Of a stretch of DNA of 64,000 nt, positions 48,368 through 60,947 are shown piece by piece; within the stretch, counting starts at the first letter, position 1, and every line of letters starts with the position of its first letter. The notes beneath the pieces are model-generated. The model was not told the origin of the DNA. It saw only the letters and a program-made list of their open reading frames with translations, and did no database searches. The translations under genes were made by a program, and so were the position numbers. Origin of the DNA: Nocardiopsis gilva YIM 90087 (GTDB lineage Bacteria > Actinomycetota > Actinomycetes > Streptosporangiales > Streptosporangiaceae); contig NZ_CP022753.1 in NCBI RefSeq assembly GCF_002263495.1, positions 5,758,312 to 5,822,311 of the forward strand, written 5' to 3'.

Positions 48368-49441
48368 CTAAAGTCCGACGCCCACCATCACCGGCTCGTT
48401 GACCAGGGTCACGCCGAACGCCTCGGCCACCCCGCCGCGCACCTCGCGGGCGAGCCGCAGCAGGTCCTCGGTGGTGGCGCCGCCGGGGTTGGTCAGCGCG
48501 AGCGTGTGCTTGGTGGAGATCCGGGCGGGCCCGGCACCGTAGCCCTTGTGGAATCCGGCGCGGTCGATGAGCCAGGCCGCGGAGAGCTTCACATGGCCGT
48601 CGGCGGCGGGGTGGGCGGGCGCCGCGGTGTCCGGGCCGAGCCGATCGGCGACGCGCTTGGTGAACTCGGTGAACGCCTGGGCGTCGAGGATGGGGTTGGT
48701 GAAGAAGGACCCGGCGCTGCGCGTGTCGGGGTCGGCGGGGTCGAGCACCATGCCCTTGCCCTTGCGGAGCGCCAGGACGGTGCTGCGCGCCTCGGCCAGC
48801 GGCACCTGCTCCCCCGCCTCGACGCCCATGGTGCGGGCGACCTCGGCGTAGCGGATGGGCCGGCTCAGGTCGCCGCGGGTGAGTTCGAACACGACCTCGC
48901 ACACGACGTAGCGGTCGCTGCCCTTGAAGACGCTGTCGCGGTAGGTGAAGCCGCACGCGGCGTTGTCCATCACGCGCCGCTCGCCGGTGTGCCGGTCCCA
49001 GACCAGCACCTCGGTGATGGTCTGGCTGACGTCCTGGCCGTAGGCGCCGACGTTCTGGATCGGGGTGGAGCCGACCCGGCCGGGGATACCGGAGAGGCAC
49101 TCGATCCCGCTGAGCCCTTCGGCGACGGTCTGTTCGACGAGGGGTTCCCACCCCACGCCGGCGTCGGCGCGCAGGCGGACGGTGTCGTCCCGGGTGCCCG
49201 GCTCCATCGTGACGCCCTGGGAGTCGACGTGGACCACCGTCCCGGCGAACCCGGCGTCGGCGATGACGAGGTTGCTGCCGCCGCCCAGGACGAGCAGCGG
49301 CTCACCGGCGGCGTCGGCGGCGGTCACGGCGTCCACCAGCTCGGCGGTGTCGCGGGCGGTGACGAACCGCCCGGCGGGGCCGCCGAGGCCGAGGGTGGTG
49401 TAGTCGGCCAGCCGAACGTCGGACTCGGTGTGAACGGTCAC
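48368..49441 (-). CDS. murB: UDP-N-acetylenolpyruvoylglucosamine reductase
   Basis: FAD enzyme that reduces UDP-GlcNAc-enolpyruvate to UDP-MurNAc in peptidoglycan synthesis. 357 residues from GTG at 49441. FAD-binding LGGGSNLVIADAGFAGTVVH and LSGIPGRVGSTPIQNVGAYG; the catalytic serine is in RSAGSFFTNPI and the C-terminal part includes AAWLIDRAGFHKGYGAG with SISTKHTLAL-like spacing. Type I form with the full third domain. It lies downstream of hadB, as in mycobacteria and streptomycetes. Confidence 0.96.
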   Translation of the reverse strand: MTVHTESDVRLADYTTLGLGGPAGRFVTARDTAELVDAVTAADAAGEPLLVLGGGSNLVIADAGFAGTVVHVDSQGVTMEPGTRDDTVRLRADAGVGWEPLVEQTVAEGLSGIECLSGIPGRVGSTPIQNVGAYGQDVSQTITEVLVWDRHTGERRVMDNAACGFTYRDSVFKGSDRYVVCEVVFELTRGDLSRPIRYAEVARTMGVEAGEQVPLAEARSTVLALRKGKGMVLDPADPDTRSAGSFFTNPILDAQAFTEFTKRVADRLGPDTAAPAHPAADGHVKLSAAWLIDRAGFHKGYGAGPARISTKHTLALTNPGGATTEDLLRLAREVRGGVAEAFGVTLVNEPVMVGVGL

Positions 49442-50888: not shown

Positions 50889-50998
50889 GTCGGAGTGCCT
50901 TTCTCGCTGGAATCCAAACTGACAACTGCGTGCTAACGCAGCACACTGCAAAAGACCCGCGTCGACCCCTGGCACAGTGACAGGGGTCTCGCAGGTGG

Positions 50999-51071
50999 TA
51001 GCGGAGGCCGGACTTGAACCGACGACACAGCGATTATGAGCCGCTTGCTCTACCGACTGAGCTACTCCGCC
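50999..51071 (-). tRNA. trnM: tRNA-Met (anticodon CAT)
   Basis: 73 nt. Acceptor GGCGGAG / CTCCGCT, D arm GCTCAGTCGGTAGAGC, anticodon loop CTCATAA, T loop TTCAAGT. The G1-U72 wobble and paired acceptor argue for elongator rather than initiator. CCA is encoded immediately 3' (50998-50996). Confidence 0.94.
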
Positions 51072-51188
51072 TGGATGCCCGGGCGTTCCGGATCCGCAGT
51101 GAAAGGATACCGGAGGCTCGGCTCGACCGGCGAATGAGATTCCGCCGGTCACCCACCTGAGTGGACCGGAAGCTCAAACAAGTGGTGG

Positions 51189-51261
51189 AGCCCCTTTACG
51201 GAATCGAACCGTAGACCTTCTCCTTACCATGGAGACGCTCTGCCGACTGAGCTAAAGGGGC
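51189..51261 (-). tRNA. trnT: tRNA-Thr (anticodon GGT)
   Basis: 73 nt. Acceptor GCCCCTT / AAGGGGC, D arm GCTCAGTCGGCAGAGC, anticodon stem TCTCC/GGAGA with loop ATGGTAA, T loop TTCGATT. CCA is encoded (51188-51186). Paired with tRNA-Met upstream of rpmG. Confidence 0.95.
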
Positions 51262-51380: not shown

Positions 51381-53477
51381 TCATCCACCGTACTGCCCGG
51401 GTGCGTCGACCCAGACGTTGGACATCGCGTCCCGGTGGATCGTCCGGATCGTGGCGGGCAGGCCCAGCCGGATCAGGGCGTCGGGCAGCCGGGTGTCGTG
51501 CGTGAACACGATGATCTGGCGGTGGCGGCCGACCTCCGCGAGCACTGCGGACAGCCCCTCGACGGTCTCGGTGTCCATGGCCTGGACCGGGTCGTCCAGG
51601 ACCAGGAAGCCGAACGGGTTGCCCGGGATCAGGGTCCGCGGCAGGCACACCGACAGCGCCAGCGCCTGGAACTCGCCCTGGCTCAGCAGCCCCGGCGCGT
51701 TGCCGTCGTTCTCCACGCCGTCCACGGCGACGTCCACGGCCATCCGCCGCTGCATCCCCCGGCCGACCAGGCGCAGCCGCTCCAGGTCGATGTGGCGCTC
51801 CTGACGCAGCCGCTGCCAGACGTGCTCGGCCTGGGCCGCGAGCGGGCGCAGGCGTTCGGCCCGGATCTCCCCGGCCAGGCCGGTCAGCCAGTGCAGCGCC
51901 TGCTCGGCGGGGACCAGCGTCTCGTGCGCGCGCGAGGCCGAGCGCGCGTCGTCGATCCACGCGGACAGCTGCTCGGCCAGGGCGGCCCAGCCGTCCGTGG
52001 GGTCGTCGAGGCGCTCACCGGCGGCCCTCCGGGCGCTGGTGGCCGCCGAGCGGAAGCGGCGGCCCACGGTCTCGATGTGGTCGGCCAGCTCACCCAGGTC
52101 GGTGATCTTCGTGCCCGCCTCCCACTGCGCCCAGACCTGCCCGAGCTCGCTGTCGGCCGGCAGCCAGGACGGCATCGGCGCCAGCAGGAACCGGGCCTTG
52201 TCACGGGCGTCCTCGGCGCGCTCGTAGGCGGCCGCGGCACTCGCGGCAATAGGCTCCAGCTTCGCGATCTCCGCTCTGGCCTGCCGGGCCCAGTCCGGCC
52301 CGAGGACTCCCTCGGCGTGGCACGTCGGGCAGTCGGACTCCTTGGGGTGGCGCTGGTGGTGCTCCAGCGCTTGGCTCAGCAGCGTCACGACGCCGCGCGC
52401 GCGGTCGCCCTTGGTCCCGGCCGCCATGGCCAGTTCCATCGCCGCTCCGCGCAGCTCGTTGACGACGTCGCTCATCAGGGACCGCTCCGGAACCGACATC
52501 CGGCGCAGCCGTCGCATGACGAGCTGCTGGCCGGGGTCGGCCGGGCCGTCGTCGGCGGCGATGACCGCGAGCCGGTCGAGGTCGATGGACGCGGACGCCG
52601 CCGTGAGCAACTCCACAGCGCGCGTGGCGCGAGGGTCGCTGCCGTCCTTGAGCTGGGAGATCAGGAACGGCAGATCGCGACTGGGGCGATCGCGCACCTT
52701 TGCCAGGCGGTCGCAGGCCTTGGCGAGGCGGCGCTCGGCCTCGGCGAGCTCGGTGAGTCCGAGGAGCGCCGTGATGGTGTCGTACAGCTCGACGGCGCGC
52801 CCGGTGACGGTCCGGCCGAGCTCGTCGTAGGAGAGGAACGGCCGGTACCGGGCGAGTTCCGGGTCCAGGCCGAGGCTGCGCAGCGGCGCGGTCATGCCGG
52901 AGTGCGACACCACCTCGCCCCGGGCGGAGCGCACGCTGTCGCCGGTCCAGTGGCGGGTGACACGTGTGGGGCCGGGGTCGCCGTCCATGTGCAGCTCGAC
53001 GCTGACCTCGGTGCTGTCCTCGAAGTGCAGGTTGCGCCAGCCGTCGCGCCACGCCGTGGGCATCGCGTCCCAGCGGGGGTTCCGACCAGTCAGCGCCGCC
53101 TGGGCGGCCTCGGCGAAGCTGGACTTCCCGGATCCGTTGCGGCCGACGATGACGGTCAGGCCGGGGCCGGGCGGGAATTCCAGCTGGGCCGGGCGGCCGA
53201 TGCCGCGGAACCCCTGGACCTCGATCCGGCCCAGATAGCTTCGCCGCAGCTGGGGCCTGGGCGGCGGGGTGCGCACCTCGTCCGCGAGCCCGTCGACCGC
53301 CTTACCCCGGGCAAGGGCCGCCACAGCGTCGTCCCCGTGCAGAGCGGCCGCCACCCACTGCCGCGCCGTCGCACCCAGGGAGGACTCGGCCAGCCGCTCC
53401 AGAACCTCCAGAGCCGACTCGCCGCCGTCGTCCTGACCGGCGTCCTCATCGGAGAACGTCGCAGGGATTGTCGTCAC
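51381..53477 (-). CDS. RecF/SbcC-like AAA ATPase with zinc-hook-like motif
   Basis: 698 residues from GTG at 53477. Residues 1-75 form an acidic then helical extension (ALEVLERLAESSLGATARQW). The ATPase head begins YLGRIEVQGFRGIGRPAQLE, with P-loop GRNGSGKS at 112-119. Helical arms follow, interrupted by CPTC at 383-386 (KESDCPTCHAEG), placed as in Rad50/SbcC zinc hooks. The signature is LLSQGEFQALALS and Walker B is FGFLVLDDPVQAMD, with a switch histidine in VFTHDTRL. No nuclease domain. Terminators separate it from jetC, so co-function is only inferred from position. It may instead be a stand-alone DNA-repair type ATPase. Confidence 0.8.
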   Translation of the reverse strand: MTTIPATFSDEDAGQDDGGESALEVLERLAESSLGATARQWVAAALHGDDAVAALARGKAVDGLADEVRTPPPRPQLRRSYLGRIEVQGFRGIGRPAQLEFPPGPGLTVIVGRNGSGKSSFAEAAQAALTGRNPRWDAMPTAWRDGWRNLHFEDSTEVSVELHMDGDPGPTRVTRHWTGDSVRSARGEVVSHSGMTAPLRSLGLDPELARYRPFLSYDELGRTVTGRAVELYDTITALLGLTELAEAERRLAKACDRLAKVRDRPSRDLPFLISQLKDGSDPRATRAVELLTAASASIDLDRLAVIAADDGPADPGQQLVMRRLRRMSVPERSLMSDVVNELRGAAMELAMAAGTKGDRARGVVTLLSQALEHHQRHPKESDCPTCHAEGVLGPDWARQARAEIAKLEPIAASAAAAYERAEDARDKARFLLAPMPSWLPADSELGQVWAQWEAGTKITDLGELADHIETVGRRFRSAATSARRAAGERLDDPTDGWAALAEQLSAWIDDARSASRAHETLVPAEQALHWLTGLAGEIRAERLRPLAAQAEHVWQRLRQERHIDLERLRLVGRGMQRRMAVDVAVDGVENDGNAPGLLSQGEFQALALSVCLPRTLIPGNPFGFLVLDDPVQAMDTETVEGLSAVLAEVGRHRQIIVFTHDTRLPDALIRLGLPATIRTIHRDAMSNVWVDAPGQYGG

Positions 53478-53638
53478 CGCCGATCACCCCACCCGCCCCA
53501 TCGCTTTACTGTTCCTTTGCAGGTTAGGACAGATGGGATGAAAGCAATAGCCGGATGCGCACACCGGGCGCTGACGCTCGCCCGGTGCCGCGCACCGCCC
53601 TCGGCACCTTCGCGGGGCGGGTCGCGCCGCCGCGTCCA

Positions 53639-53678
53639 CCCCGTCCCACCGGGGACGGGGTCTCCCGGCCGCCGGGAG
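53639..53678 (-). terminator. jetC terminator, two stems
   Basis: CTCCCGGC / GCCGGGAG (53662-53678) eight bases past the jetC stop, then CCCCGTCCC / GGGACGGGG (53639-53660). The remaining gap to the ATPase start at 53477 holds its leader; a TTGCTT and a TAACCT lie there, but the 15-base spacing is poor. Confidence 0.6.
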
Positions 53679-53685
53679 CACGTGA

Positions 53686-56600
53686 TCACACCCCGATAAG
53701 GCGCCTCCGCCGCCCGTCCCAGCTGAAGTGCAGGGTGGCGATGCCCGGCACGGCGGGATCGCGCAGACACTCGTAGATGTGCAGGCTCGGCACGTTCGGG
53801 AAGCAGCCCCAGACCCGTTCCGAGGTCAGCACGAAGTCGAGGTCGAGCTCGACGAGCAGTCCCAGGAGGCGCCCGTGGGTGGGTTCGTCGACCTTGGCGA
53901 AGGCGTCGTCGAGCAGGATGAGCCGGGGCGCGGTGGGGGCCTGCTCGGCCAGCGCGTCGAACTGCGCCGCCGCGGCGGCGAACAGCACCAGATAGGCGAT
54001 GACGCGCTGCTCGCCCTGGCTCAGGGCGGTGCGGTGGCTGAGCCGGCGTTCGCGCTCGGGGTAGGCGGCGTTGGTCACGTACACGGTGAACGCGAACCAG
54101 GAGCGGTAGTCCAGTGCCGCCCGGAGCTGCGCGCCACCGGTCGCCGTCGGGTCCAGTCGGCGGATCGCCTCGATGCAGCGGCGCAGCGCGTCACGCAGCC
54201 GGGTGCTCTCCACCCGGGTGCGCTGTGCGGCGGGTCGCGCCAGCAGCGGCACAACGGCCTGGATGTCCTCGTCGGCATCGGGGGCGAGGTCCCACTCCAG
54301 CCGGACGCCCAGGCCCTGGGACGTGGTGACGTCGCCCAGCACCCCGTTCATCGAGGAGATGAGCGCCCGGGCGGCGTCGATCTGCTGGGAGAGGTGTCCG
54401 GCGAGCTCACCGAGCAGGTGGCGCTCGAACGCCTCCTCCTCTCGGATCAGTACGGCCTCCTCGGCCTGGGCGATGGCCCGGTCGAGGCGGTCGGCGTAGT
54501 CGGTGATGTCGTAGGAGCCGCCGTCGTCGTGCACGGTGACGCGCTTGAGCCCCGCCGGTTCGGTGAGCTCGGTGCGCGCGCCCACGGCCCCGCTGGAGGC
54601 GAGAAGCCGGTGCAGCTCCTCACGGCGCCGCAGGATGCCGCTGTCGTCGATCAGCGGGTCCTCGGCGCCCTCCCCGAGCCCGGCCTCGATGGCGGCCACG
54701 AGGGCGTCCAGCTCACGCACGCGCTCGGCCAGGGCGTCGTGGTCCTCCGCGTCCTCGGCCCCGGCGTCGTCGGTCGCGCCGTCGGTGGCCGGCTCCGCGG
54801 TGTCCTCCGCGCCGTCCGCGGTTTCGGTATCGCGCCGTCCGGCCAGAGGGGCGACGTCGGCGAGACCGGCCGCCGCCAGCAGAGTGGTGTCGGGCCGTCC
54901 GTCGGCGTCCTCGATCATCCGGTGCAGTCCGTCGCCCGCGGCACAGGCGCGACGGGCCTGCCCGGCGCGTTCGAACACGGCGGTGTCGAGGCGGGTCTCG
55001 GCGGCGACACGGTCGTCACGGGCCTGCTGGGCCGCGCGCTCCACCTCGGGGAGGCGTTTCTCGGCCTCCTCCATGCGCCCGCGGACCTCGCCCACGGCCG
55101 TCTCGATCTGCTCGGGTACGGCCACACGGGCGCGGTCGGTCAGCTCGATCTGGCGGCGCACGGTGATCATGTCGCCGATGGCGGCGGTGCGCGCGTCCTC
55201 CGCGATGATGCGGTCGGAACGCGTGCGCTCCCAGTCTGCGGTGTGCCGCTGGTACTCCTCCAGCTGGACGGCGAGGGCCTCCAGATCGCGGTAGGCCGAG
55301 GCGATCTGCACGCGCAGCCGGTCGAGCACGGTCAGGGTGCCGGTGAGCTGGTCGGGGGCGGCGGGCAGGGCGTGCTCGGCCGCCGGTTCGGCCATCTCCG
55401 AGCGCAGCGCCAGGGCGTCGCGGCGGGCGGCCTCGGCGGCGTCGGTCGCGGCGGTGTGGTCGCGCTTGGCGTCGGCCAGCCAGGAGCGGGCGTTGTCCAG
55501 CGCCGCCCACGCGGCGGCGAGGCCGCCGGGGTCCGGCAGGTCCCGGACGGTCGCCACGAGGGCGCCGTGCCTCTGCTCGATGTCGCTGCGCCGCTCCCCC
55601 GCCTCGGCCAGCAGGGCCTCGGCGATGTCGATGCGCCGGTCGATGTTGGCGACGTGGCGGTCGTTGGTATCGGTGCGCACGTCCGCGCCGATGTACTCGG
55701 GGGCCGACTTGAAGTGGGCGCCGGAGGTGACGCCGAGCCGCCACCGCCCGTCGAGGGAGACCGCGCTCGCCGGGGGTGAGGCGCTGTCCCGCCGGTGCCG
55801 GGGCTGGGGGTCGACGACCTCCTCGCCGGGGGCGGGCAGCAGCCCGATGGAGCACAGCAGCGCCTCGACGGTCCTGGGCGCGATGCCGGAGTCGCCCATG
55901 TCGGCCGGGGTCAGCGCGTCGAGGAGGGTGCGGCCGTTGGCCTGGCGCGAGGGGGTCAGGACCAGGTCGCGGGTTCCGGGGTCGACGACCGCGCCGTCGG
56001 CCGTGATCCACCCGGACAGCAGGCCGCTCGCCTCGAGGGCGGCCTCCAGGCCGGCGCGCTCCGACGTCGTGAGTTCGGGGGTGAAGTCGACGGCCATGTA
56101 GAAGGGGAGGCCGGCGCTGGGCCTGCGGGGGGCCGTCGCCCACTGGGGGCGGGCCGCGGGGATGTGATCGCTCCCGTTGTCCTTGCGGTCGGCGAGGTCG
56201 TCGAGCTCTCCGGCGAGTTCGCGCTCCTCGCCGACGGCGGTGTCGCGCCGGGTGCGCAGGTCGCGCAGGAGGGGGTCGACCATGTCGTGCACCGCGTCGG
56301 CGATGGTCGCGGGGACGTCGGCGTCGAGCACCCGCCGCGCGTCGTCGAGCGGCAGCTCGACGTGCTCCTCGAGGGCGGCGACGGCCTCGTTCAGGTCGGC
56401 CTCGGGAACGACCTCGCGCAGCCGGGTGGTCCATTCGCGGACCTGGTGGGCGTAGTCGGCGCTGGCGGTGCGGACCGCGTCGATGGCCGACCGCTCCCGT
56501 TCGGCGGCGCGTTCGAGCGCGGCTTCGGCGGCCTCGGCCTCGCCGTCGAGTGCGGCCTCGCGGCGCTCGGCCGCCGCCCGTTCGATGGCGCGGTCGCGCA

Positions 56601-58458
56601 GCGCCGCGGCGGTCTCGGCGCGCGCCGCGGCCGCCCCGTCGGCGTAGCCGAGCAGGTCGTGCAGCTCGGCGAGTCTGCCGCGCAGCTCGACGAGGTCGAT
56701 ACCGGCCACCGGATCGCGTTCGACGGCCTGTTCCAGGCCCTCCAGGTCGACGTGGGTGACGCTCTCGCGGGGCGCGAGGATGGTCGGCACCGGCTGCGGC
56801 ACCTGCCCGAGCGTGCCGGGATCGATGCCCCCGGTGCGGGCGGTCTCCTCCATCTCGGAGTGCAGGCGCTGCAGGCCGGACAGGGCGCGTTCGATCGAGG
56901 CGATGTCGTTGGTCAACCTCTCCTTGGCGCGCTCCTCCGACATCAGGGCGTAGCCCGCGGCCGTCCAGGCGGCTTCGGCCGCGCGGATGTAGGCGCTGAC
57001 GGCGGCCTGGCGCGCCTCGTGCTCCTGGACGCTGACACCGGCGTCGGCCATGGCGCCCGCGGTGAGGGTGTCGGCGTCGGAGGCGGCGGTGTCGCGCGTG
57101 CGGCGGAGCCGGTCGCGCTCTTCCTGGACGGCGCTCTCGGCCGCGACGAGCTGGTCGAGCTCGTCGGTGAGGCGGGCGACCTCGGAGTCGCGATGCTGGT
57201 ACTCGCCGATCTGCTCGCGGACGGCGTGCGCCTCGGTGCGCAGGGTGCCGCGCAGGTAGCTCCGGTAGTCGGTGAGGAAGGCGGAGACCTGGTCGCGTGC
57301 CGTGCCGAGGGAGGCCAGGCGGTCGCGTGCCTCCTCCAGGTCGGCGATATTGCGCGCGACCTCGTCCAGGACGGTCTCGTCCATGGGAGGCAGGGCCTCG
57401 GCGAGGACCGAGACGAGCTCACCGGCCTCCAGCCGCTCGCCGATGGTGGGGCGGCGCAGCCGGTAGAGGAGGTGGATGAGGTTGCGGTAGCGGACGGGGT
57501 CGTCGATGCCGAACAGCTCGCGCATGACCCGGGCCCGGTAGGTGACCGGGGTGTCGTAGCAGTTGTCCTGGCCGACCTCGGTGCGGAGCCGGTCGATGGG
57601 CATCGGGCGGTCGTCGACGGCGAGGCTGAGATCCGTGCCGACGCGGCGGTCGGTGACGAAGAAGACGCTGCGGGCGCCGGTGTCGGCGGACGCGGTGATG
57701 GCGGCGCCGAGCGTCAGGTGGGCGGCGCCGGACTCCTCGGTGTCGCCGTCGCGGACGAACTCCACCCACAGGTAGCCGAGGAGGGAGGTGGTGGGGGCGG
57801 AGTCGGTGTTCTCGTCGCCGCGGCCCGCGCCGTCACGGTCGTCGTCGCCGTCGGCGGGGGTGCGGCCGTCCAGCATGAGCCAGCGCAGGCTGGTGCGGCT
57901 GGTGCCGGTGGTGTCGAGGCGGCGGGCGTCGCCGTCGAGGAGGAACGGCAGCAGCATCTCCAGCGCCTTGGACTTGCCGGTGCCGTTGCGTCCGCGCAGC
58001 AGGAGGCGGCCGTCCGCGAAGTCGAAGGTGTGGTCGTCGTACTGCCAGACGTTGCAGATTCCGGCGCGGTTGAGCCGGTACCGGCAGGCGCGGTCCGCCT
58101 CCCCGTCGCTCGGCGACCGACGGTCCGCGGACGCGCCTGCCGGCGTGTCCGGTGCGTCAGCGGCGTCGGTGCCGGCGGCGCCGTTTCCTGCCGCGGTCTC
58201 CTCGGTGCGCTCTTCCAGCGCGGTCCCGGACCGGGCCGGAGCGTGGCCGTTCGGGGACGGGGCGGCGGCCGCGCCGTCGTCCTCGGATACCGGGGCGCCA
58301 GACGACGCCAGGAGGTCGGTCCCGCTGTCCTCGCCCGCACCGGCTTCGTCGGATGGGGACGGCGCCGAGGGAACCGTGCGGTCGTCGCCGCCCTGGGCCG
58401 GGCCCATGCTGCGGACCTGCCGCATCACCGAGGCGATCGGGTCATCCAGGTCGGACAT
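53686..58458 (-). CDS. jetC: JetC-like SMC ATPase of type II Wadjet (TIGR02680-like)
   Basis: MukB-like ATPase that in Wadjet drives loop extrusion on small circular DNA. Chosen start is ATG at 58458 (MSDLDDPIASVMRQVRSMGP), six bases after GGAG, giving 1590 residues; a GTG at 58515 is also open. Residues 1-120 are disordered, acidic and unusual. The conserved part begins YRLNRAGICNVWQYDDHTFD, with P-loop GRNGTGKS at 156-163 followed by KALEMLLPFLLDGD. Long coiled-coil arms rich in E, A and R surround a hinge. The signature is LSQGEQRVIAYLV and Walker B is RLILLDDAFAKVDEPT. All ATPase motifs are intact. Confidence 0.85.
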   Translation of the reverse strand: MSDLDDPIASVMRQVRSMGPAQGGDDRTVPSAPSPSDEAGAGEDSGTDLLASSGAPVSEDDGAAAAPSPNGHAPARSGTALEERTEETAAGNGAAGTDAADAPDTPAGASADRRSPSDGEADRACRYRLNRAGICNVWQYDDHTFDFADGRLLLRGRNGTGKSKALEMLLPFLLDGDARRLDTTGTSRTSLRWLMLDGRTPADGDDDRDGAGRGDENTDSAPTTSLLGYLWVEFVRDGDTEESGAAHLTLGAAITASADTGARSVFFVTDRRVGTDLSLAVDDRPMPIDRLRTEVGQDNCYDTPVTYRARVMRELFGIDDPVRYRNLIHLLYRLRRPTIGERLEAGELVSVLAEALPPMDETVLDEVARNIADLEEARDRLASLGTARDQVSAFLTDYRSYLRGTLRTEAHAVREQIGEYQHRDSEVARLTDELDQLVAAESAVQEERDRLRRTRDTAASDADTLTAGAMADAGVSVQEHEARQAAVSAYIRAAEAAWTAAGYALMSEERAKERLTNDIASIERALSGLQRLHSEMEETARTGGIDPGTLGQVPQPVPTILAPRESVTHVDLEGLEQAVERDPVAGIDLVELRGRLAELHDLLGYADGAAAARAETAAALRDRAIERAAAERREAALDGEAEAAEAALERAAERERSAIDAVRTASADYAHQVREWTTRLREVVPEADLNEAVAALEEHVELPLDDARRVLDADVPATIADAVHDMVDPLLRDLRTRRDTAVGEERELAGELDDLADRKDNGSDHIPAARPQWATAPRRPSAGLPFYMAVDFTPELTTSERAGLEAALEASGLLSGWITADGAVVDPGTRDLVLTPSRQANGRTLLDALTPADMGDSGIAPRTVEALLCSIGLLPAPGEEVVDPQPRHRRDSASPPASAVSLDGRWRLGVTSGAHFKSAPEYIGADVRTDTNDRHVANIDRRIDIAEALLAEAGERRSDIEQRHGALVATVRDLPDPGGLAAAWAALDNARSWLADAKRDHTAATDAAEAARRDALALRSEMAEPAAEHALPAAPDQLTGTLTVLDRLRVQIASAYRDLEALAVQLEEYQRHTADWERTRSDRIIAEDARTAAIGDMITVRRQIELTDRARVAVPEQIETAVGEVRGRMEEAEKRLPEVERAAQQARDDRVAAETRLDTAVFERAGQARRACAAGDGLHRMIEDADGRPDTTLLAAAGLADVAPLAGRRDTETADGAEDTAEPATDGATDDAGAEDAEDHDALAERVRELDALVAAIEAGLGEGAEDPLIDDSGILRRREELHRLLASSGAVGARTELTEPAGLKRVTVHDDGGSYDITDYADRLDRAIAQAEEAVLIREEEAFERHLLGELAGHLSQQIDAARALISSMNGVLGDVTTSQGLGVRLEWDLAPDADEDIQAVVPLLARPAAQRTRVESTRLRDALRRCIEAIRRLDPTATGGAQLRAALDYRSWFAFTVYVTNAAYPERERRLSHRTALSQGEQRVIAYLVLFAAAAAQFDALAEQAPTAPRLILLDDAFAKVDEPTHGRLLGLLVELDLDFVLTSERVWGCFPNVPSLHIYECLRDPAVPGIATLHFSWDGRRRRLIGV

Positions 58459-58644
58459 CGACGTCTCCGCTCCCTCGATCATGTTGGCGGCGCCCTTCGC
58501 CCCGCTCCCGCTCACCGGCCGTCCTCCGCACCGTGTCCTGCGTCGGCCTCGCGCCGGGGACCCCGCCCGTCGGCGGTCCTGACATTGTCCCGGATCCCCG
58601 CGGGCGGACGGACGCCATCGGCGCAGAAGACATCGCTCGCCGTG

Positions 58645-59913
58645 TCACGCTCGCTCTCCCGGCACCGACTCCGTTTCTTCTCCCTCACCCCGCACCGTTG
58701 TCGCGTCCGCGCGCTGCGATCGCTGCCCCCGTCTGCCTCCGTACCGGGCGGCGGCCGCGAGGAGGCTCCAGCCGTCGTACCCGGTGGCGCTCGGCGAGGG
58801 GTGGCTCATCAGACCGGCGTCGCGGAGCAGTCGGAGCACACGGTGGGTGAGGTCGTCCTGGTCGGGGATGTGGGAAAGGGCGGTACGGGACCAGCAGTGG
58901 CGCGGCTCGGCGTCGGGAGCGACAACGGCGGCGATCTCGGTGCGCAGGGTGTCGGGGGGCACGGGGACAGCGTGCACGGGTGAGTGCTCCGGACGCAGCC
59001 GCGCGATCAGGCGCTCCAGCAGAAGCAGCGCCGCCTGGCCGATCGGGTCGCCGCTGGGGAAGACGGCGCCGCGGTCCTCCTCGGTCTCGTCGGGCATGAT
59101 CAGCGCGATGCCCTCGGCGCGGATCTCGGCGTCGCAGCCGAGCAGCTCGCCGAGTTCGGCGACGGCCCGCCACTGGTGGTGGGCGAGGCGCTCGCGCTGC
59201 CGCTCGGACAGGTCGGCGCGGTAGACGACGGGCGTCTCGGCGAGCATGCGACGCAGCGCGACCTCACCGGCTTCGTCGCCCGACGGGTCGGTGCCCTCCA
59301 TCCCCTCCACGAAGACGGAGGGGTCGGGAGCGGAGTGCGGCGGGTGCGCGACCACGCGGCGGGCCAGCTCCAGATCGACTTCCAGCCACACCTCCCGCGC
59401 CCCGTCGGCGGCGTACCCGGAGTACGCGGCGAGCGTCCCCTCGCGTTCGGTGATCACGCCCCAGCCGACGAGGTGGCGCAGTGCGGCGGCGAAGGTGCGG
59501 CGCTCGGCCATCCGGTCGCGGGGGTCCAGGTCGAGTCCGGCCTCCGTGGCAGCGGCATGCACGTCGGCGGCCAGCCGCGACACCGGAAGCGTGGGCGGCG
59601 CCTCCACCAGGGCGGCCAGGGCGAGGGCGAGGTAGGTGTAGGCGCGCGGGGAGAAGTGGGCGCCGCTGGACCGGGTGAGGGGGCGGGCGACGGACCGGAC
59701 GAGGCCGGTCTTGGCGAGGCGTGCGTGGTCGGCCGCGACCGTCAACCGGTAGTCCAGGATTCGGTGGAACCGCTGGATCAGCCAGTCGGAGTGGGCGCGG
59801 ATGACCGCGAAGTCCTCGGGGTGGGTGCGGGCGGTGACGATCGGGGCGGTCAGGAGCCGCCGCGCGGCCGCCTGGCGCTCTCCGATGAGCGCGATGTCCT
59901 CGCTGGACTCCAC
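58645..59913 (-). CDS. jetB: JetB-like kleisin-interacting subunit of type II Wadjet (DUF2398/TIGR02678-like)
   Basis: 422 residues from GTG at 59913, eight bases after a strong GGAGGTGA. ERQAAARRLLTAPIVTARTH, the HSDWLIQRFHRILDYRLTVA segment and ARLAKTGLVRSVARPLTRSS are the landmarks of this family, followed by a winged-helix-like region (LRHLVGWGVITEREG) and ETPVVYRADLSERQRERLAH. In Wadjet, JetB (KITE-like) sits on the kleisin JetA and JetC. It looks full length. Gaps of about 118 and 186 bases separate it from jetA and the chosen jetC start. Confidence 0.85.
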   Translation of the reverse strand: MESSEDIALIGERQAAARRLLTAPIVTARTHPEDFAVIRAHSDWLIQRFHRILDYRLTVAADHARLAKTGLVRSVARPLTRSSGAHFSPRAYTYLALALAALVEAPPTLPVSRLAADVHAAATEAGLDLDPRDRMAERRTFAAALRHLVGWGVITEREGTLAAYSGYAADGAREVWLEVDLELARRVVAHPPHSAPDPSVFVEGMEGTDPSGDEAGEVALRRMLAETPVVYRADLSERQRERLAHHQWRAVAELGELLGCDAEIRAEGIALIMPDETEEDRGAVFPSGDPIGQAALLLLERLIARLRPEHSPVHAVPVPPDTLRTEIAAVVAPDAEPRHCWSRTALSHIPDQDDLTHRVLRLLRDAGLMSHPSPSATGYDGWSLLAAAARYGGRRGQRSQRADATTVRGEGEETESVPGERA

Positions 59914-60031
59914 TGGTGTCCGTCACCTCCTGCGCCTGGTTATGTGCTTCTCGGGGCCGAAGGGGCGCCGGTCGTCTCGTGGTGGTCGGGGTAGGCCAGG
60001 GCAGTGCGCCGATGAGATCGCCCGGCCCGAT

Positions 60032-60823
60032 TCACGCCTGGCGGACCAGCCGGATCCCGGGATCCAGCCCCGCCAGCCCGCAGTCGTCCGTCGTCGTGTC
60101 GGACACGGCGGTGTCGTCGGTGTCCTCGGTGTCGTCGATCTCGTCAGCGTCGGTCCCCGCGTCGACCGCGTATGCGGTGATCTGCATCCGCAGGCCTTCG
60201 AGTGTGAGGTCGCCGTCAGCCCCCCGCAGGGTGATGCGTGCCGTCGGAGCGCTGCGGATGTGCAGCCGGATACCGAGTTCGAGGTCTCCGGCGGAGACGG
60301 GGGAGAGGGTGGCGTCACCGGCGCTCAGGGTGGCGGTGAGGAGTTCCATGAGCACCTCCAGCGCGAGGCCGGACAGGTGCGGCCGGGCATTGTCGCCCGT
60401 GGGTTCGGCCAGCACGCGGCGCAGCTCCTGGGCGGCGGTGCGCCGCCAGTGAGCGGAGGACTCGGCGGCGTCGCGCAGGCGCGCCTGCTGGTCGGTGTGG
60501 TCGGGGATGGGGGCGGGGGGCAGAGCGCTGGTGAGCCGGAGGGCGGCGGTGCGGGCGAGTGGCGCGTCCCACCAGCTCGTGGTGGCGGCGACGGCGTCCT
60601 CACCGGTGCCGCCGAGGTGGCGGGCCGGGTGGACCGCGAACGCGGCGGTGAAGAGCTCGTGCGCGGTGTCGGTCTCAGCGGCTTCGAACCAGGAGGCAAG
60701 GCGGAGCAGCGCGGCGCGGCCGTGCCTGGGCACAGGCACACCCGTGTCGTCCGCGCGCTCGCTGGCCCGCGCGACGCCGTCGTCGGCGGTCGCCGTCGTC
60801 GCCTGGTTCGCTGAGTCACCCAC
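60032..60823 (-). CDS. jetA: Truncated JetA-like protein (C-terminal half of DUF2397/TIGR02677)
   Basis: 263 residues from GTG at 60823. It begins with a short variable stretch, then RHGRAALLRLASWFEAAETD, AHELFTAAFAVHPARHLG and TTSWWDAP, which correspond to about the middle of JetA. Then come the R/A-rich helical part and a C-terminal beta domain (ITLRGADGDLTLEGLRMQI), and an extra acidic tail. Type II JetA is normally about 500 residues; the N-terminal half with the winged-helix and kleisin-like helices is absent. An in-frame TGA lies just upstream (60829-60827), and no JetA N-terminal sequence is visible in the 60830-61020 gap. It may be a pseudogene remnant or a reduced subunit. Confidence 0.65.
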   Translation of the reverse strand: MGDSANQATTATADDGVARASERADDTGVPVPRHGRAALLRLASWFEAAETDTAHELFTAAFAVHPARHLGGTGEDAVAATTSWWDAPLARTAALRLTSALPPAPIPDHTDQQARLRDAAESSAHWRRTAAQELRRVLAEPTGDNARPHLSGLALEVLMELLTATLSAGDATLSPVSAGDLELGIRLHIRSAPTARITLRGADGDLTLEGLRMQITAYAVDAGTDADEIDDTEDTDDTAVSDTTTDDCGLAGLDPGIRLVRQA

Positions 60824-60947
60824 AACTCAGCAGACTAAAGACCCTGGGCCACTGTCGCGCCCAAAACCCGGGCTCCGACATCCGCGGCGATACCCGAAAC
60901 TACGCCTTGACCTGCGAAGAAACCATCCCCTGTATTTCTTGAGGAGA

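Follow-up and report, generated by a model that had tools for sequence, protein, structure and literature searches.

A 64,000-nucleotide stretch of the Nocardiopsis gilva YIM 90087 chromosome (NZ_CP022753.1, positions 5,758,312 to 5,822,311), called the window below, carries a locus related to type II Wadjet, the plasmid-cutting JetABCD defence system built around a structural maintenance of chromosomes (SMC) ATPase. On the minus strand a halved kleisin gene (half-JetA), JetB, JetC and a Rad50/RecF-like ATPase follow one another, and then come tRNA-Thr and tRNA-Met. The best reading of this arrangement is an exapted, effector-free derivative of type II Wadjet, favoured over a dead defence; it probably now does some other work on DNA. 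More specifically, and with confidence only slightly better than even, we take the locus to be a domesticated descendant without effector that encodes a probably non-dimerising SMC clamp acting on the chromosome. Comparison with relatives supports two steps on the way there. A jetABC set without JetD persists at this site with full-length jetA in Allonocardiopsis opalescens, which is sister to the rest; in the Nocardiopsidaceae line jetA appears to have shed about its first 300 residues, with a new motif exactly at the new start, followed by vertical inheritance under purifying selection.

Profile searches confirmed the gene set that the initial annotation had proposed, namely half a JetA, a full JetB, a JetC and no JetD. 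JetB, the KITE subunit (59913-58645, minus strand), is full length: it spans positions 1-362 of 363 in PF09661 (E 3.5e-79; 267 bits, cut-off 26.9), is called JetB2 by PADLOC, and reaches 100.9 bits against TIGR02678, under the cut-off of 124.65. JetC, the SMC ATPase (58515-53686, minus strand), has a variable N-terminal extension of ~140 aa. It matches TIGR02680 end to end (E 6.5e-252; 839 bits, cut-off 463), is called JetC2 by PADLOC, and matches chain A of PDB 9QE0 (E 1.7e-61), which belongs to the type II system of Neobacillus vireti (nvJET, PDB 9QE0/9QE1). A TIGR02680-type JetC and a DUF2398 JetB are thus present as in type II Wadjet, and each aligns with its type II family along its length. 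The locus differs from type II Wadjet in that it sits at a fixed chromosomal site in its clade, its JetA is not a full-length DUF2397 kleisin but lacks about the first 300 residues, and the operon holds no JetD Toprim nuclease; tblastn with the JetD of the same genome gave no match in the window at E <= 1e-4. Seen from MksBEF-like sets, the SMC and KITE subunits without a nuclease are there, and a complete kleisin is not.

The half-JetA gene (60823-60032, minus strand, 263 aa) covers only the C-terminal part of the DUF2397 profile PF09660 (300-482 of 483, E 1.9e-26) and positions 303-490 of 494 in TIGR02677, with a score under the family cut-off. No N-terminal half is hidden in frame, because an in-frame TGA at 60829-60827, one codon upstream of the GTG start, closes the frame. 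What is left can be placed on a known structure: the type II JetA profile matches residues 5-493 of N. vireti JetA (9QE0 chain E, E 2.5e-50), half-JetA aligns by sequence to residues 309-383 of this chain (E 0.0027), and residues 106-221 of its model match residues 390-495 (Z 7.3, rmsd 3.2, 104 residues). Half-JetA is about residues 309-495 of the N. vireti protein, and the absent part is 1 to ~308.

How widely is this anatomy shared? Among 200 genomes drawn from the larger family, the ATPase was matched in 61 at E <= 1e-20, in 42 of them at 59-100% identity and in 19 only at 35-43%. JetB was matched in 107 of the 200 at E <= 1e-10, and orthologous JetB, recognised by 44-100% identity and position, occurs in the same 42 genomes as the close ATPase. 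JetB at 42-46% identity is also found in genomes without a close ATPase; the five such loci that were examined (L047 and L141-L144) carry full JetA and JetD. In a genome-wide search of the 42 locus-bearing genomes, 41 have the halving point in common, with the DUF2397 match starting at profile position 288-300; the half-JetA copy of one of these, G069, lies on a separate contig close to the contig end. The remaining genome, A. opalescens (G083; loci L136/L189), has a full-length DUF2397 match there, and its locus likewise lacks JetD. Named genomes, scanned to give 78 loci from the best 80 of 354 relatives, agree with this: 54 are close orthologs, and JetA could be read in 46 of them, 45 half and one full (Allonocardiopsis), while the other eight have no JetA on the stretch examined. 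In a class-wide draw, with up to four candidates scored per genome, DUF2397 is present in 79 of 345 genomes. Matches of the 288-300 to ~480 kind occur in at least 19 of these, all from the window's family, and the nearest thing outside it is one DUF2397 fragment (272-459) in G512. The halved JetA thus looks confined to this clade in the 345-genome sample.

The new start is shared as well. Half-JetA proteins begin in a MGDS-like manner in many genera and in a MGLNQ-like manner in Nocardiopsis, and 34 of 40 half loci have the motif TCT[CT]TA[GC][TGC]CTGCTG a few bases upstream of the start codon. It does not occur again on either strand in 2.0 Mb covering 56 loci. The motif is missing in the half loci L043, L044, L110, L113, L137 and L138, and also upstream of the full-length JetA in L136. 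In the window, a -10-like TAGTCT element (60832..60837, minus strand), a putative promoter element, stands 8 nt upstream of the half-JetA GTG, and the spacing of the motif suggests leaderless half-JetA transcripts.

Could the missing pieces be supplied from elsewhere in the genome? JetD matches exist in 19 of the 42 locus-bearing genomes at E <= 0.001, over the family cut-off in 15, and a genome-wide search gave none in the other 23. In eight genomes (G011, G019, G023, G063, G065, G066, G086, G206) half-JetA is the only DUF2397 match, and these eight have no JetD match either. A general supply in trans of the JetA N-half or of JetD is ruled out, because these eight genomes have neither. The JetC N-terminal extension was considered as a stand-in for the JetA N-half and likewise rejected, as half-locus JetC proteins have anywhere from 24 to 563 residues between the start of the open reading frame (ORF) and the P-loop.

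The order of the two losses can be read from the JetC tree, in which L135 was used in corrected frame and rows L007c, L049 and L144 were left out. The half-locus proteins form one clade of 41 tips (support 0.987), and the full-JetA, JetD-less G083/L136 is sister to it (support 1.0 with G083 added). Since such a full-JetA set stands next to the half-locus clade, JetD was probably lost from the locus before JetA was halved.

The N. gilva genome, a single contig of 6.14 Mb, contains two further type II sets. One, at 0.31 Mb (L007), is a complete jetABCD. The initial annotation had reasoned that a full system elsewhere, or relatives with frameshifts throughout jetB and jetC, would turn the window locus into a decaying duplicate. 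The full system exists, yet the window locus is not reduced to such a duplicate, because 23 of the 42 genomes have no JetD match and widespread frameshifts are not seen in the relatives: the JetC frame is uninterrupted in all 42 drawn genomes, and 5 of the 54 named loci show changes. The other set, at 2.39 Mb (L008), lies next to a superoxide dismutase gene and has full-length jetA, jetB and jetC but no jetD; its JetB was identified through its resemblance to the one in the window. The three genomes examined (L008:6793-14169, L050, L051) show this arrangement of full-length JetABC without adjoining JetD, beside superoxide dismutase and X-Pro peptidase genes. The JetABC-sodA locus resembles the window in being a type II JetABC set without adjoining JetD and differs from it by its full-length JetA and its JetC, which forms a separate tree branch (with long branches); this separate position suggests a second loss of JetD.

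Had jetB and jetC merely persisted by chance after jetA and jetD broke, the half gene and the missing nuclease would be explained, and so would the frame changes in at least one of the four genes at 5 of the 54 named loci (JetC in L162; JetB in L163 and L173; JetB, JetC and ATPase in L190; JetC and ATPase in L220). The changes in L190 point to sequencing error because a neighbouring marker is split as well; in L220 the neighbours are whole. Against such a relic stand the identical truncation with its conserved start-site motif, Walker A, Walker B and signature retained in 41 of 41 half-locus JetC proteins, Walker A, LSQGE and DDPVQAMD kept in 42 of 42 ATPases, and the ratios of non-synonymous to synonymous substitution (dN/dS). 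By Nei-Gojobori, and with window JetC taken without its first 140 residues, the close pair formed by the window and L039 gives 0.23 for half-JetA, 0.32 for JetB, 0.22 for JetC and 0.12 for the ATPase. Six further pairs give 0.20-0.57, the top value coming from one half-JetA pair. Overall the range is 0.12-0.57 in 26 usable comparisons, with the L128 JetC row (wrong frame) excluded and one pair having no ATPase. We regard chance persistence as hardly credible. The dead defence considered in the initial annotation fares no better, given that the halved gene, the gene order, the start-site motif and the ATPase motifs recur across the clade at these ratios; the other option of that annotation, a reduced SMC complex without a nuclease, is borne out as anatomy and evolution.

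The neighbourhood of the locus is conserved too. JetC and the ATPase lie on one contig in 39 of the 42 genomes, in the same order and orientation in 38, with a gap of roughly 80-1000 bp apart from G183, where an insertion of ~5 kb (L109:3944-9013) separates them. Downstream of jetC the initial annotation had noted a RecF/SbcC-like ATPase and tRNA genes; in the window tRNA-Thr(GGT) (51186..51261) and tRNA-Met(CAT) (50996..51071), both on the minus strand, indeed come after the ATPase. All 18 loci tested have this pair next to the ATPase, and 11 of them have a tRNA-Tyr on the JetA side. In one genus the ATPase is present in 40 of 40 genomes. In these soil bacteria, close orthologs come from Nocardiopsis, Thermobifida (including T. 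fusca), Streptomonospora, Marinactinospora, Marinitenerispora, Actinorugispora, Murinocardiopsis, Allosalinactinospora and Allonocardiopsis, and from one record titled Glycomyces fuscus. A taxonomy look-up places Thermobifida and Marinactinospora in Nocardiopsidaceae, and Allonocardiopsis incertae sedis in the same order. The start-site motif, the constant synteny, the preserved ATPase motifs and the dN/dS values of 0.12-0.57 together indicate that the locus is under selection and vertically inherited.

What might such a complex do? The kleisin N-terminus dimerises two motors in type I Wadjet and in MukBEF, according to the passages of PMC10586767 that treat them, and nvJetABC is given as (JetC2JetB1JetA1)2 in the part of PMC12647877 that states its composition. 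The C-terminal kleisin part present in half-JetA would hold one JetC head and perhaps JetB. The N-terminal part of a kleisin also holds the other SMC neck, closing the ring. Because half-JetA is without residues 1 to ~308, the N-terminal part that dimerises in type I and MukBEF, two motors would not be paired, and the genes would encode a single JetC2-JetB-halfJetA ATPase that does not dimerise and whose kleisin gate stays open. Such a complex, having no nuclease to activate, may act as a DNA clamp or compactor rather than extrude loops from both sides, and its likely substrate would be the host chromosome, in organisation or repair.

Half-JetA could instead have become a small regulator or adaptor that is no longer a kleisin, leaving JetB and JetC to work as a Rad50-like pair without a kleisin. 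In favour of this, the segment that should close the ring is lost, and the linker and the C-terminal tails vary among half-JetA proteins. However, the C-terminal domain of DUF2397 is itself conserved, and JetB, which usually sits on the kleisin, is retained at full length, so that we consider this very unlikely. A defence that does not cut is also conceivable: the complex would entrap or compact foreign circular DNA and silence it, as proposed for eukaryotic Smc5/6. The intact SMC ATPase and the Wadjet ancestry speak for this, as does the Smc5/6 precedent (discussed in a passage of PMC10586767). The locus is, however, syntenic and vertical, with the ATPase in every genome of one genus, unlike the patchy JetD (19 of 42), and the plasmid recognition proposed for type I depends on paired motors (in the corresponding passage of PMC10586767). 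On balance we hold non-cutting defence to be unlikely and prefer the chromosomal clamp.

The neighbouring ATPase (53477-51381, minus strand; PF02463, PF13476) adds a further layer. It is of the AAA_23/SMC_N type, with P-loop, ABC signature, Walker B and a CPTC motif; the CxxC was found in 41 of 42 close orthologs within the stretch scanned. These are the features of Rad50/SbcC, while no Mre11/SbcD partner lies at the locus, where the neighbours are jetC and tRNAs. As in Rad50/SbcC, RloC and LmuB-like ATPases, the ABC halves are far apart with a CxxC between them; the window protein differs in having neither an Mre11/SbcD nor a Lamassu partner adjoining and no domain past its C-lobe.

The distant ATPase relatives (35-43% identity) look different. 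They were seen at 34 loci, none with a Jet gene, and have 190-200 residues after Walker B, versus 56-128 in the close ATPases. In 33 of the 34 loci a small gene follows directly 3', often with a 4-nt overlap, the exception being L215, where the sequence ends just past the ATPase. A relationship between the tail and the small downstream protein is suggested by hhalign (probability 86%, with E 5e-6 for this one comparison). The model of the small protein (pLDDT 91) has the HEPN protein 2HSB as its best structural match (Z 13.6, rmsd 2.4, 111 residues), and 7 of the 12 top structural titles name HEPN or the MntA-HepT pair. We call it HEPN-like, a label limited by the ease with which helical bundles give middling Z scores. 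Foldseek alone gave no match for it at E <= 0.001, and PADLOC and Pfam searches with the small gene beside the distant ATPases gave nothing over a Pfam cut-off. As an observation in its own right, this two-gene family (L198-L219, L221-L232), an ATPase of ~812 aa with zinc-hook-like features and a tail followed by a HEPN-like gene of ~126 aa, is seen in Pseudonocardia, Geodermatophilus, Dormibacterota and others; it looks like a defence or toxin system, apparently without a name so far.

Both the extra tail and the downstream HEPN-like gene are missing at the window locus. With up to 90 candidates scored per genome, the HEPN-like partner was matched in 5 of the 42 genomes (G023, G072, G086, G154, G197), in no case at the locus; in three of the five it adjoins a second, distant-type ATPase. 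As a control, it was found in 6 of 6 genomes with a distant ATPase. In the midpoint-rooted tree two tailed ATPases fall together with the 42 close ones, so the tail seems to have been lost in the close ATPases rather than gained by the others, although the rooting is uncertain. A zinc-hook-like ATPase without tail and HEPN-like partner would be a second disarmed SMC-like machine retained alongside JetABC, possibly as its partner.

Such findings bear on whether the locus is an active defence in which another effector, whether the adjacent ATPase or some JetD or nuclease encoded at another site, performs the killing step. The ATPase and JetB do occur in the same 42 of 200 genomes, distant ATPase relatives carry a HEPN-like module, and JetD is matched in 19 of the 42. 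Nevertheless, the window-type ATPase has no extra tail, the HEPN-like partner is unmatched in 37 of the 42 genomes and away from the locus in the other five, and 23 lack any JetD match; we judge a substituted effector quite unlikely. The initial annotation had also suggested that the SMC complex recruits the neighbouring ATPase. Co-occurrence in the same genomes fits this idea, whereas the gene is convergent in one genome, ~5 kb off in another and on another contig in three, and recruitment is at most suggested. Extending the chromosomal clamp in the same direction, we tentatively entertain that two coiled-coil ABC machines, the Wadjet-derived SMC complex and the Rad50-like ATPase, were each disarmed independently, became fixed next to each other in the Nocardiopsidaceae ancestor and now make up a single composite machine that handles DNA with an open kleisin and has a core role on the chromosome.

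Several observations weigh against an effector-free chromosomal clamp. The dimerising role of the kleisin N-terminus is documented for type I (in the passages of PMC10586767 on this point), and the system in the window is type II. Half-JetA should bind JetC or JetB, and this is a predicted contact; its mean pLDDT is 73, with confident modelling in the C-terminal domain only, and the structural Z of 7.3 is at the level that the tool calls common, the next unrelated chain scoring 4.3. The ATPase is not tightly coupled to jetC, being convergent with it in G083 and on a different contig in G009, G072 and G181, and it is split in two pieces in 2 of the 40 genomes of the genus mentioned above. JetD, where matched, could in principle act in trans in 19 of the 42 genomes. 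Finally, the dN/dS values stand without a control gene, and 5 of the 54 named loci have frame changes.

Complexes of the JetABC type without a nuclease are known from elsewhere. MksBEF of Pseudomonas is described as a probable derivative that lacks JetD and serves chromosome organisation (in a passage of PMC10586767), and in Stenotrophomonas maltophilia jetABC without jetD is conserved in a Wadjet I set that the authors think is probably inactive as a defence (in the relevant part of PMC11680222). Like the window locus, both keep a JetABC-type complex without the nuclease. They are type I-like, and the parts of these sources that describe them mention no halved kleisin, whereas the window set belongs to type II, has a halved kleisin and comes with an additional ATPase. 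Searches of the open-licence PMC literature turned up neither a halved kleisin nor this locus. If the reading as a chromosomal clamp holds, the route from defence to housekeeping that has been suggested for MukBEF and MksBEF would have been taken a second time here, independently and further along, and the set with full JetA and no JetD would be a surviving intermediate. Whether SMC work needs a closed kleisin ring and motor dimerisation at all could also be tested on a natural complex that has just the C-terminal half of its kleisin. Such an experiment is feasible because T. fusca and many cultured Nocardiopsis carry the locus.

Some minor features of the window complete the picture. A 10-bp inverted repeat directly 3' of jetC (53638..53661, minus strand) is terminator-like in sequence and fold; the call is weak, as this stretch folds no better than shuffles (z -0.75). 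A consensus scan for promoters and terminators stayed at shuffle level. The 98-aa ORF at 53474-53770, between jetC and the ATPase, overlaps the jetC end and by eye looks like chance. Further along, the conserved marker w48167 is an ORF antisense to the minus-strand ORF 48368-49441, and its conservation is probably owed to the minus-strand gene. The segment 28001-30000 has a GC content of 0.775, ~10 points over most of the surrounding 10-46 kb region.

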